Source: Terriglobales bacterium | GTDB lineage: Bacteria; Acidobacteriota; Terriglobia; Terriglobales; Acidobacteriaceae | NCBI GenBank assembly: GCA_035764005.1 | Contig: DASTZZ010000090.1 | Span: 1-42,127, forward strand | Reading direction: 5' to 3' | Length of the DNA stretch: 42,127 nucleotides | Shown here: one piece after another, positions 4,059-8,806 of the stretch | Position numbering within the stretch: position 1 is the first letter of the stretch | Layout of the letters: every line of letters begins with the position of its first letter | Notes under the pieces: model-generated | The model's input: only the letters and a program-made list of their open reading frames with translations | Database searches by the model: none | Told to the model about the DNA's origin: nothing | Position numbers and translations under genes: made by a program

Positions 4059-5327
4059 ATGCGTTATTCTGCGTGCGTGACGATCACCAGCCTGGCGCTA
4101 TCTCGCTTACTCGGCTCTCGAGTGGCTGACGCGAGCGGCCGATTCATCGGCCGTGTGCGTGAAGTCGCGCTGCGTCCGCAAGAGGACCCGAATCGAGTTT
4201 CCGGCTTAGTGATCAAAACGCGCGACGGCGAGCGCTTCCTCACGCCGAGCATGATCCAGATCGACGAAGATTCCGAGCTGCGCGCGTCGCTTCCGCTGGC
4301 TGAATGGCCCAATGTAAATACGCTGGACGACTTCTTCCTGCTCGAACGCGACCTGCTCGACCAACAAATTATCGATGTCTATGGCAGAAAGGTCGTTCGT
4401 GTAAATGACGTCGATATCCATCCCGAAGCCGCGAATGGCGGTGTGAGTCTGAAGATCGCGGAGGTGGATGTTGGCTTGCGCGGTGCCGTGCGCCGACTGT
4501 TGAAAGGAGTGGCTCCATCAGGAGCAGTGGAAGCCGTCGTTCAGAAGCTGAAGCCACGCGTCATTCCGTGGGAATTCGTCGATCTCATCGAGACCGATCC
4601 AGCCCGGCGCGTGAAACTTCGTATCGAGCATGAGCGGCTCTCGCAACTTCATCCTGCCGACATCGCTGACATCGTGGAAGAACTCGCTCCGGCCGAGCGC
4701 GAAGCTGTATTCGAGACGCTGGACGAAGAAGTTGCGGCAGAAGCGCTGGAAGAGATCGATCTAGATATTCAGGTCTCCATCGTCGAATCGCTCGATTCAG
4801 AACGCGCCGCAGACATCGTCGAAGAAATGGATCCAGATGCTGCCGCTGATCTCCTCGATCAGCTCCCAGGCGAGACCTCCGAGGAAATCCTTGAAGAGAT
4901 GCAGCCGCAGGAGCGCGAGGAGGTCGAAGACCTACTCGAACACGGAGAAAAGACCGCCGCCGGTCGCATGACCACCGAGTATCTGGCAGCAGCGCCCGAT
5001 ACCACGGCCGAGGAAGCCATTGAGCTGTTGCGGAATTTTGAGGGCGGAGTGGAAAGCGTGGCGACGATTTATCTAGTCGACAACGAAGGCAAGCTGTGCG
5101 GTTCTGTGCCGCTGCAGCGAATCGTTCTCGCTCCGCCGGCTCAGAAGATCTCGGAGCTCGCTGCCAAGCCGCTGGTATTTGTCCGCGAAAACGACCAGCA
5201 GAAGAAGGTTGTTGAAGTCATGGAAAAGTACAACCTCTACACGCTAGCCGTGGTCGATGACGAGCAGAACCTCAAGGGCATCATTACTGCCGACGATGTA
5301 ATCACCCTTTTGCGCGAACAAGTATAG
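4059..5327 (+). CDS. Soluble PRC-barrel / MgtE N-domain / CBS-pair protein (cation sensor)
   Basis: 422 residues with no membrane segment. Order: PRC-barrel-like region about 10-75 (LLGSRVADASGRFIGRVREV), a second PRC-like stretch about 100-150, an MgtE_N superhelical domain about 185-300 built of repeats such as LHPADIADIVEELAPAERE, then two CBS motifs (GRMTTEYLAAAPDTTAEEAI and the last 60 residues ending GIITADDVITLL). In MgtE Mg2+ channels the MgtE_N and CBS domains bind Mg2+ and gate the pore; here the pore domain is absent. The next gene, 95 bases downstream, is an NRAMP-type permease, so I infer a separate sensor subunit or regulator for it. ATG at 4059; a GTG at 4077 is also possible. 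Confidence 0.85.
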   Translation: MRYSACVTITSLALSRLLGSRVADASGRFIGRVREVALRPQEDPNRVSGLVIKTRDGERFLTPSMIQIDEDSELRASLPLAEWPNVNTLDDFFLLERDLLDQQIIDVYGRKVVRVNDVDIHPEAANGGVSLKIAEVDVGLRGAVRRLLKGVAPSGAVEAVVQKLKPRVIPWEFVDLIETDPARRVKLRIEHERLSQLHPADIADIVEELAPAEREAVFETLDEEVAAEALEEIDLDIQVSIVESLDSERAADIVEEMDPDAAADLLDQLPGETSEEILEEMQPQEREEVEDLLEHGEKTAAGRMTTEYLAAAPDTTAEEAIELLRNFEGGVESVATIYLVDNEGKLCGSVPLQRIVLAPPAQKISELAAKPLVFVRENDQQKKVVEVMEKYNLYTLAVVDDEQNLKGIITADDVITLLREQV

Positions 5328-5379
5328 TTTTTCGTTTCCTTAAGCTGACTCGAATCAACTTCCCATTTATTCTGGAATG

Positions 5380-5395
5380 CTTCGCGTTCGCGAAG
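5380..5395. promoter_or_regulatory. Short perfect palindrome between sensor and permease genes
   Basis: CTTCGCG (5380-5386) and CGCGAAG (5389-5395) form a perfect 7-bp inverted repeat with a two-base centre, in the 95-base gap before the NRAMP gene. It could be a hairpin affecting readthrough or a protein-binding site; sequence alone does not decide. Confidence 0.4.
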
Positions 5396-5422
5396 TGAAT
5401 TCCCGCCATCTGTAAATAGCTT

Positions 5423-6703
5423 GTGGAGAAGCACATCGCTCATCGCCGGCGACTGTCGTTTGCCAGAACCTGGCAATTCCGCCTGCTTGCGTTCTTCGCG
5501 GTCTTTGGACCCGGGTTCATCACGGCAAATGTCGATAACGATGTCGGAGGAATCCTCACCTACTCGCAGGCCGGCGCAAAGTTCGGCTACGCACTGCTCT
5601 GGACGCTGATTCCGATCACGATTGCGCTCATTGTCGTTCAGGAAATGGCGGCGCGCATGGGCGCCGTCACCGGCAAAGGTCTATCGGACTTGATCCGCGA
5701 AGAATTTGGGCTCCGAATTACCGTGTTCACCATGCTGATTCTCGGGCTGGCAGACTTCGGCAACATCGCCGCCGAGTTCGCTGGTCTGGCCTCCGGCATG
5801 GGAATCTTCGGAGCCAGCAAATACATCGTGGTGCCGATCGGGGCAGCGCTGGTCTGGTTCGTAGTGGTTCAAGGAACCTACAGGCCGGTCGAAAAAATTC
5901 TGATTTTCTTTTCCCTGATCTATTTCACTTATATCGCTTCGGCATTCGCCGCTCATCCCGATTGGCGGGCGGCCGTGCAGAACACGTTTGTCCCCGTCGT
6001 GAACAGGAGCTCGGAATATCTCGTCATGCTGGTCGGGATCATCGGCACGACGATCACTCCGTGGATGCAGTTCTACCTGCAAGCCTCCATCGTGGAGAAG
6101 GGAATCGGCAAAAAGGAATACGCACTCTCGAAATGGGACGTCGTGCTGGGATGCATCATTACCGACGTAGTTGCATTCTTCATCGTCGTCGCCTGCGCAG
6201 CAACCCTGTATATAACTGGTCAGCACGACATTGGAGATGCTTCCGAAGCGGCGGTCGCGTTGCGGCCTCTGGTTGGTCAGTTTGCTTCGCTGTTGTTCGC
6301 TGTTGGGCTTGTGAACGCCGCGTTGCTCTCGGCCGCGATCTTGCCGCTCGCTACGGCGTACAACATCTGTGAGGGACTCGGCGTCGAGTCTGGAGTGAAC
6401 AAGCGCTTCTCAGAAGCCAAAGTGTTCTATTGGCTTTATACGGCTCTCATCGTCGGCGGCGCTGGTATCGTCTTGCTTCCGAAAATTCCTTTAATCAAAG
6501 TGATTCTGTTCTCGCAGGTGCTGAACGGCGTATTGATCCCGTTTGTTCTCATCTTCATGCTCAAGCTGGTCAATCGCGCCGATTTGATGGGCGAGTACAA
6601 GAACTCAATCACCGCGAACGTGATTGCCTGGAGCACCAGCATCACCATGATCATTCTGACTGGGGCAATGCTGTGGACACTCTATGCTTACCCACAGAAA
6701 TGA
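5423..6703 (+). CDS. NRAMP-family divalent cation permease, divergent type
   Basis: 426 residues, about 11 membrane helices, from a GTG start. The N-terminal FGPGFITANVDNDVGG aligns with the first NRAMP helix, but the usual DPGN ion motif reads DVGG (40-43): the Asp is kept and the Asn lost. In the sixth-helix region GTTITPWMQFYLQASIVEKG aligns with the usual MPHNLYLHS segment, so Met-Pro-His becomes Thr-Pro-Trp (212-214). Loss of the metal-binding Met is known in the NRMT Mg2+ transporters and generally reduces preference for soft transition metals, so Mg2+ or another hard cation is a reasonable guess. The upstream MgtE_N/CBS gene supports this. Transport of Mn2+ or Fe2+ cannot be excluded. 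Confidence 0.85.
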   Translation: MEKHIAHRRRLSFARTWQFRLLAFFAVFGPGFITANVDNDVGGILTYSQAGAKFGYALLWTLIPITIALIVVQEMAARMGAVTGKGLSDLIREEFGLRITVFTMLILGLADFGNIAAEFAGLASGMGIFGASKYIVVPIGAALVWFVVVQGTYRPVEKILIFFSLIYFTYIASAFAAHPDWRAAVQNTFVPVVNRSSEYLVMLVGIIGTTITPWMQFYLQASIVEKGIGKKEYALSKWDVVLGCIITDVVAFFIVVACAATLYITGQHDIGDASEAAVALRPLVGQFASLLFAVGLVNAALLSAAILPLATAYNICEGLGVESGVNKRFSEAKVFYWLYTALIVGGAGIVLLPKIPLIKVILFSQVLNGVLIPFVLIFMLKLVNRADLMGEYKNSITANVIAWSTSITMIILTGAMLWTLYAYPQK

Positions 6704-8150: not shown

Positions 8151-8402
8151 ATGCCACTCAGGATAAACGACCCGGAAGTGGAGCATCTGGTTCGGGCTCT
8201 GGTTGAGAAAACAGGAGAAGCGCCCGATAAGGCTATTGCGAGAGCTCTCCGGGAGAGTCTTGAGCGGGTAGCAGACCACGAGCGTCCGACCTTGGCAGAT
8301 GAACTCGATGAGATCGGTAAACGCTGCGCGGCATTGCCTGATGTGGACACGCGCTCTCCAGATGAGATCCTTGGCTATGACGAGGATGGACTCCCAACCT
8401 GA
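8151..8402 (+). CDS. vapB: VapB-type antitoxin (Rv0623-like family)
   Basis: 83 residues. It opens with a short beta strand and helix (PLRINDPEVEHLVRALVEKTG, then KAIARALRESLERV) as in Rv0623/PSK-type transcription factors, the DNA-binding half of many VapB proteins. The acidic C-terminus (DVDTRSPDEILGYDEDGLPT) is of the kind that docks into the toxin's active site. Its stop shares one base with the vapC start (TGATG), the usual arrangement for autoregulated toxin-antitoxin pairs. Confidence 0.85.
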   Translation: MPLRINDPEVEHLVRALVEKTGEAPDKAIARALRESLERVADHERPTLADELDEIGKRCAALPDVDTRSPDEILGYDEDGLPT

Positions 8403-8806
8403 TGGTGATCGATAGCTCTGCCCTTGCAGCAATTCTCCTGGGCGAACCCGAACAGCACCGGTTTAACACTCTGATCGACAATGATCGGGTTCGACTCATC
8501 TCTGCAGCAACACTTGTCGAAATCTCCATTGTGATTGAGGCACGAAAAGGCGAGTTAGGGACTGCTCAACTCGACTTGCTGATTCGCCACGCTAAGATCG
8601 AGACGGTTCCGGTGACGGTGGAGCGCGCGCAAATTGCGCGCACTGCATACCGTAACTTTGGCAAGGGACGTCATGCTGCAAAGCTTAATTTCGGCGACTG
8701 CTTCGCCTATGCTCTCGCGAAAGCAACAGGCGAACCTTTGCTCTGCAAAGGACCGGAGTTTGGTCGAACTGACCTTTTGCTCGCCAATACGATCTCGGAT
8801 TCATAG
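8402..8806 (+). CDS. vapC: VapC-type PIN-domain ribonuclease toxin
   Basis: 134 residues, the normal VapC length. The acidic PIN residues are D4 (VIDSSALAAILLGE), E40 (TLVEISIV), D99 (LNFGDCFAYALA) and probably E119 in KGPEFGRTD, where many family members have Asp. FGKGRHAAKLNFGDC is characteristic of this subgroup. VapC toxins cleave specific tRNAs or rRNA and are held inactive by VapB; the target here is unknown. Intact catalytic residues suggest a working toxin. An IscU/NifU-like gene starts only five bases downstream. Confidence 0.88.
   Translation: MVIDSSALAAILLGEPEQHRFNTLIDNDRVRLISAATLVEISIVIEARKGELGTAQLDLLIRHAKIETVPVTVERAQIARTAYRNFGKGRHAAKLNFGDCFAYALAKATGEPLLCKGPEFGRTDLLLANTISDS

Follow-up and report, generated by a model that had tools for sequence, protein, structure and literature searches.

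Why should a soluble protein built like the cytosolic half of the MgtE Mg2+ channel be encoded directly in front of a permease of an unrelated fold? The question is raised by two genes of contig DASTZZ010000090.1, a stretch of 42,127 bases (the window) belonging to the 5.1 Mb, 97.5% complete genome of a Terriglobales bacterium. The original prediction described a pore-less PRC/MgtE_N/CBS reading frame immediately followed by an NRAMP-fold permease, and both the frames and the domains were confirmed with Pfam. The two genes, called the sensor and the permease gene here, lie in this order on the same strand, separated by 95 nucleotides in which a consensus scan, a weak kind of scan, found no promoter- or terminator-like site; co-transcription is therefore plausible from the sequence. 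Our answer is that the pair probably constitutes a Mg2+ importer made of two proteins, its permease being under feedback control by a separate sensor in the cytosol.

The permease matches the Nramp family (PF01566) with an E-value of 1.9e-100, and its best solved relative is EleNRMT (7qia; 346.6 bits), with the next structure scoring 113.1 bits. EleNRMT is described as an uncoupled Mg2+ transporter in the available passages of the study that reports it, where the ion-site motif of NRMTs is given as DxxG-TxxA/T (PMC8806188). With DVGG in helix 1 and TTIT in helix 6, the window permease resembles EleNRMT in family and in ion site; Ala227 of EleNRMT corresponds to Thr212, a change that lies within the published motif. 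The soft methionine of Mn2+/Fe2+ Nramps is missing from the window permease, as it is from all 169 readable of 170 aligned permease rows. Thr209 is the equivalent of EleNRMT Thr224, whose replacement by alanine is reported in the same passages to make Mg2+ transport undetectable and to keep Mn2+ transport with at least a doubled Km (PMC8806188). Judged by these motifs, the window permease is an NRMT, a member of the Mg2+-transporting branch of the NRAMP family, so that an adjoining Mg2+ sensor is less surprising than it first looked. Three other Nramp-family matches are present in the window genome. One of them is a canonical Nramp with DPGN and MPH motifs, which gives Mn2+ another likely route, and helix 1 of the other two was unread by pattern.

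The pair was followed through 151 genomes of the window's class, drawn evenly and at least 90% complete, with presence thresholds of E 1e-80 for the permease and E 1e-50 for the sensor; absence was deduced from other searches of the sample for five of the 25 genomes without the permease and for four of the 24 without the sensor. The permease occurs in 126 genomes and the sensor in 127. Counted without correction for shared ancestry, 126 genomes have both, 24 have neither, one (G092) has the sensor only and none has the permease only. The sensor match of G092 starts 174 bases from a contig end, and it is towards this end that the permease would be expected. Both genes are missing from every sampled genome of family f4 (6) and of family f9 (10), from seven f6 genomes spread over four genera, and from a single f1 genome; the other sampled members of its genus carry the pair. 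The sensor gene stands directly upstream of the permease gene, on the same strand and within 600 nucleotides, in 85 of 126 genomes, and chance adjacency was rejected in the class sample on this count. In 25 genomes the two genes are 0.7-6 kb apart, and in 16 they are unlinked, either on different contigs (14) or about 200 kb or more apart on the same contig (2); of the 14, at least G115 and G141 have their permease gene at the end of a contig, so some of these split pairs may be assembly breaks. Since 41 of the 126 pairs are not within 600 nucleotides, linkage alone does not explain the joint presence. The predicted conserved neighbourhood is thus borne out, with the two genes almost always present or absent together. 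The broader proposal of a detached MgtE-type sensor assigned to an unrelated permease gains support from both results and, the permease being an NRMT, loses some of its strangeness. One pair with an acidobacterial look and 60% permease identity was met in a record titled Bifidobacterium breve (L316, CALQBJ020000045.1), probably a mislabelled bin.

What else could bring Mg2+ into these cells? The MgtE pore is found in 9 of the 126 genomes with the permease, against 18 of the 25 without it (Fisher 1.5e-11, without phylogenetic correction, with f4 and f9 carrying much of the signal). There is no such exclusion for CorA (28 of 126 against 6 of 25) or MgtA (30 of 126 against 6 of 25). Neither CorA nor MgtE accompanies the permease in 90 of the 126 genomes, and at the thresholds used none of CorA, MgtE and MgtA does so in 64 of them, the window genome included: it has no CorA match, no MgtE pore (PF01769) and no MgtA match over the cut-off. 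In many permease genomes something else must therefore carry Mg2+. Two genomes, G092 and G097, lack the permease and all three of these importers. In search controls, CorA recovery ranged from 12 to 14 of 14 genomes with the threshold chosen, and MgtE was recovered in 9 of 14.

The helix-6 threonine is replaced in 13 of 156 scored permeases (11 Ala, 2 Ser). Left out of this count are 10 of 166 rows (low completeness, no positive match), the partial, motif-less row G021, second copies of one G168 locus and rows under 240 residues. CorA or MgtE is present with 11 of the 13 non-threonine permeases as against 35 of the 143 threonine ones (Fisher 2.7e-5), and with MgtA counted the figures are 12 of 13 and 61 of 143 (Fisher 6.9e-4). 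The 13 cases trace to no more than 4-5 independent changes in the tree, and a sign test was not significant; this is only a hint that threonine loss marks genomes with other Mg2+ importers. Two NRMT permeases (L253 in G158 and L251 in G144) have glutamate for the helix-1 aspartate together with alanine or serine at the 224 position, and both genomes have CorA. The helix-1 aspartate is universally conserved in SLC11 according to the available passages on EleNRMT (PMC8806188).

The sensor is matched in Pfam by MgtE_N (E 1.6e-27), by CBS in two stretches (E 1.8e-17) and, more modestly, by PRC (E 6.7e-6; 26.5 bits against a cut-off of 21.2); neither the MgtE pore domain nor a DNA- or RNA-binding domain was found by Pfam. 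An AlphaFold2 model built on a 104-sequence alignment (mean predicted local distance difference test score, pLDDT, of 91) lays out a barrel, a second barrel-like domain, the MgtE_N helices and the CBS pair in succession (residue ranges in Table 1). The second barrel-like domain scores 13.3 bits against the PRC profile, under the cut-off, and would be PRC-like by inference; several invariant residues fall in it (D98, D101, Q103, D106, R114, D117, G139 and W171). In the model the final CBS helix is followed by the end of the chain (residue 422), where the plug helix of MgtE would start. MgtE structures rank first in a Foldseek search, the MgtE cytosolic domain 2yvy giving E 8e-18. The window sensor shares 41-80% identity with 103 relatives, with 20 invariant columns, and among the 104 family members MgtE_N and CBS are matched in all and PRC in 96 (E 0.01).

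The metal and nucleotide sites were compared by aligning 151 sensor rows, in which some genomes are counted twice, to TtMgtE (2zy9, 2yvy), with the roles of its residues taken from the available passages of two papers (PMC5882242, PMC5529423). In addition to the MgtE_N domain and the CBS pair, the window sensor has in common with TtMgtE the equivalents of E59, D91, D95 and D247, namely E228, D260, D264 and D413. It differs in lacking the pore and plug helix, in carrying two additional N-terminal barrel-like domains, and in the replacement of ATP-pocket residues and of D226 and D250, with N392, L393 and T416 standing for D226, F227 and D250. Across the rows D91 is kept in 123, D247 in 126 and D95 in 143, and the E59 position is Glu or Asp in 110; the acidic residues of Mg4 (D91, D247) and Mg6 (D95) are thus retained and that of Mg7 (E59) partly. 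Asn stands for D226 in 147 rows and Ser, Ala or Thr usually stands for D250, which leaves almost no row with Mg5. In the ATP pocket, the stacking F227 is Leu in 145 rows; Ala takes the place of R187 in 89, with Gly, Val, Pro, Ser or Gln in most of the others. The F227L change is not peculiar to sensors, since the acidobacterial MgtE L140 and 8gpv also have Leu, yet they keep D226. The retained acidic sites belong to those that, in MgtE, link MgtE_N with the remainder of the cytosolic region, and would suit a conformational sensor. Without the plug helix, Mg5 and the ATP-pocket sites, the sensor cannot close a transporter quite as MgtE closes its own pore.

How firmly is the sensor tied to one particular permease? 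The window-genus sensors of G000, G001, G003, G004 and G005 form one clade (Shimodaira-Hasegawa-like approximate likelihood ratio test, SH-aLRT, 100), with a second sensor of G005 falling outside it. The permeases of the genus are split, those of G000, G002 and G005 being of type B and those of G001 and G004 of type A; the tree omits the G003 permease, whose reading frame is broken. Type B is itself a clade (SH-aLRT 100) that unites the three with G032, G034 and ten genomes of family f2. By the approximately unbiased (AU) test, a permease tree with the genus held together was rejected (p 2.3e-51), and so was a grouping of the sensors as the type B permeases (p 2.3e-5). The permease has been exchanged beside an inherited sensor in the window genus, and the pair persists; hidden paralogy with differential loss is a possible alternative. 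Type B genes lie away from the sensor in 10 of 10 f2 genomes and for 7 of 7 f6 copies of the class sample, and these genomes still keep a sensor. In a named set of 25 type B loci of at least 65% identity, the sensor adjoins in 1 of 24 judged loci, the upstream stretch being shorter than 4 kb in some. G160 has type A and type B permeases at separate places. On one contig (C4, locus L257) of G168 the two types are arranged in tandem, and the sensor is encoded on the same strand at a distance of about 6 kb. Unlinked sensors of family f2 (L099, L100, L103, L105, L107, L108) lie near genes whose sequences look like uppS, cdsA, dxr and rseP.

Similar pairs are also found on plasmids of Actinomycetota and Bacillota. 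Three of 64 matching plasmid records were examined; of a further 12, 11 carry an MgtE annotation and one is unannotated at that position. In the three, from Cellulomonas, Alicyclobacillus and Leifsonia, a sensor not annotated as MgtE and an Nramp gene are separated by 10-46 nucleotides, and both gene orders occur. The helix-6 threonine is shared by the three permeases, whose helix 1 reads DAGG in Alicyclobacillus and DAGA, not DxxG, in both actinobacterial ones. All three sensors keep the E59 (as Asp), D91, D95 and D247 positions and carry D226N and F227L, and PRC was detected in that of Alicyclobacillus only. On the Alicyclobacillus fastidiosus plasmid (L339) a recombinase and transposases flank the pair, which may accordingly move as a unit. 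On that of Leifsonia shinshuensis (L340) the permease and sensor genes are followed by a gene of the MgtC/SapB family.

A pair of the same make is encoded in Acidobacterium capsulatum, which we take to be of the same phylum as the relatives of the window. The available passages of Shin et al., from 2014, name the NrmT branch, place most of its members in context with a gene for the cytoplasmic half of MgtE, and describe ACP2976-ACP2977 of A. capsulatum and the Ca_c0685 operon of Clostridium acetobutylicum (PMC4072509). As the acidobacterial pair was tested in that work, the belief that no such pair had been characterised does not hold. Like the published pairs, the window has an NrmT gene in context with a stand-alone gene for the MgtE cytoplasmic domain; it differs from the A. 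capsulatum pair, compared by its published description, in the TxxT motif and in a permease subtype mostly unlinked from the sensor. M-box riboswitches are reported in those passages upstream of only a subset of NrmT genes, the A. capsulatum pair also being without one (PMC4072509). There is no credible Rfam match to the M-box at the window locus or anywhere in the window genome, and M-box control of the window pair was rejected. In the available text of the EleNRMT paper the terms CBS and operon are absent (PMC8806188), and a literature search at the level of search entries found no further account of the pair beyond Shin et al. The pair as such is therefore already known; the joint profile, the near-exclusion of MgtE and the permease exchange are what give it new weight. 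They bear on the question left by Shin et al., that is, what role the MgtE-like protein has beside NrmT (PMC4072509), and on whether the pair is a Mg2+ importer with the sensor as its gate.

In the mechanism that we propose, the NRMT permease would admit Mg2+, and probably some Mn2+, to the cell. If uncoupled and driven by the membrane potential, such a permease would need a brake at high cytosolic Mg2+. The sensor would bind cytosolic Mg2+ between its MgtE_N and CBS domains and, after a change of shape, inhibit the permease on its cytosolic face, a trans version of the control that the cytosolic half of MgtE exerts in cis. We infer the ion transported in this organism, the binding of Mg2+ by the sensor, the physical contact and the sign of the effect. 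A read-through model of the pair (mean pLDDT 84; predicted template modelling score, pTM, 0.67) ties the chains by a linker and yields no interface score, so it is no evidence on contact. A bolder version, to which we give slightly less than an even chance, makes sensor and NRMT, throughout the window's class and on plasmids of other phyla, an obligate two-gene, feedback-gated Mg2+ importer that replaces MgtE, with a portable sensor that acts in trans from distant loci and through permease exchange. If so, one Mg2+-sensing module controls two unrelated transporter folds, and regulation has been transferred between them. The joint profile, the near-exclusion of MgtE and the importer-poor half of the permease genomes make the role of the sensor directly testable in culturable Acidobacteriota.

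Several observations weigh against a gated Mg2+ importer. CorA or MgtE is present in 36 of the 126 permease genomes as well (62 with MgtA), and neither CorA nor MgtA is excluded; the co-occurrence counts take genomes as they are, uncorrected for shared ancestry. The sensor has lost the Mg5 ligands and the ATP-pocket residues known from MgtE, the subtype of the window permease is mostly encoded away from it, and no fusion of the two genes in one open frame was seen among the loci fetched. In the available passages of Shin et al., rescue by the A. capsulatum permease was complete for a Mn2+ mutant; for a mutant in Mg2+ transport it was confined to low millimolar Mg2+ and was not improved by co-expression of the sensor (PMC4072509). 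A brake is not expected to help at low Mg2+, so in our view the co-expression test is silent on inhibition.

The rescue experiments lend themselves to a different interpretation, put forward by Shin et al. for A. capsulatum, in which Mn2+ is the main ion imported by the permease and the one to which the sensor has been re-tuned (PMC4072509, passages as above). The tighter binding of Mn2+ by EleNRMT, with a Kd of about 100 uM against about 400 uM for Mg2+ in the available passages (PMC8806188), agrees with it, as does the absence of Mg5 and ATP-pocket residues from the sensor. We nevertheless consider it unlikely, if worth serious regard, in view of the many permease genomes (the window genome included) that have none of the known Mg2+ importers searched for, the near-exclusion of MgtE, the canonical DPGN-and-methionine Nramp elsewhere in the window genome and the lack of the soft-ligand methionine throughout the permease rows.

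Rather less likely still, the sensor might be a partner of the permease and no gate, serving as a metal chaperone, an activity named by Shin et al. as an alternative when they called the role of the sensor unknown (PMC4072509, passages as above), as a membrane-assembly factor acting via its barrels, or as an expression regulator. The two barrel-like domains ahead of the MgtE-like half, with invariant residues in the second, would fit such a role, and the lack of an M-box in the window genome makes another layer of control possible. Against it stand the retained acidic sites, which are among those linking MgtE_N with the remainder of the cytosolic region in MgtE and would suit a conformational sensor, and the absence of a DNA- or RNA-binding domain from the Pfam matches. 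That the sensor is a decaying MgtE fragment kept by chance, as its missing pore and plug helix might suggest, is very improbable: just 1 of 151 genomes has it without a permease, in a match close to the end of a contig, its relatives are well conserved with 20 invariant columns, and plasmids of other phyla carry Nramp genes next to genes for MgtE_N-CBS proteins of equal size.

Table 1. Coordinates in the window of the sensor and permease genes and of their parts.
Feature	Position	Strand	Basis
Sensor gene: soluble PRC / PRC-like / MgtE_N / CBS-CBS protein, 422 residues	4059..5327	+	Open reading frame, Pfam, AlphaFold2, Foldseek
PRC barrel, residues 12-76	4092..4286	+	Pfam PRC 12-63; strands in AlphaFold2 model
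Second barrel-like domain, residues 95-176	4341..4586	+	AlphaFold2 strands; PRC match under cut-off
MgtE_N domain, residues 197-297	4647..4949	+	Pfam; site mapping
CBS pair; chain ends without plug helix	4956..5321	+	Pfam; site mapping; AlphaFold2 model
Intergenic gap, 95 nucleotides	5328..5422	+	Ends of the reading frames; consensus scan
NRMT-type permease (NRAMP/SLC11 family), 426 residues, GTG start	5423..6703	+	Open reading frame, Pfam PF01566, best PDB relative 7qia
Helix-1 ion-site motif D40-V-G-G43 (DxxG)	5540..5551	+	Alignment to EleNRMT D55-G58
Helix-6 ion-site motif T209-T-I-T212 (TxxT; T209 = EleNRMT T224)	6047..6058	+	Alignment to EleNRMT

Elsewhere in the window, at positions 8151-8806, a PSK_trans_fac / PIN-domain pair resembling a VapBC toxin-antitoxin system is placed between genes that co-occur in many relatives.

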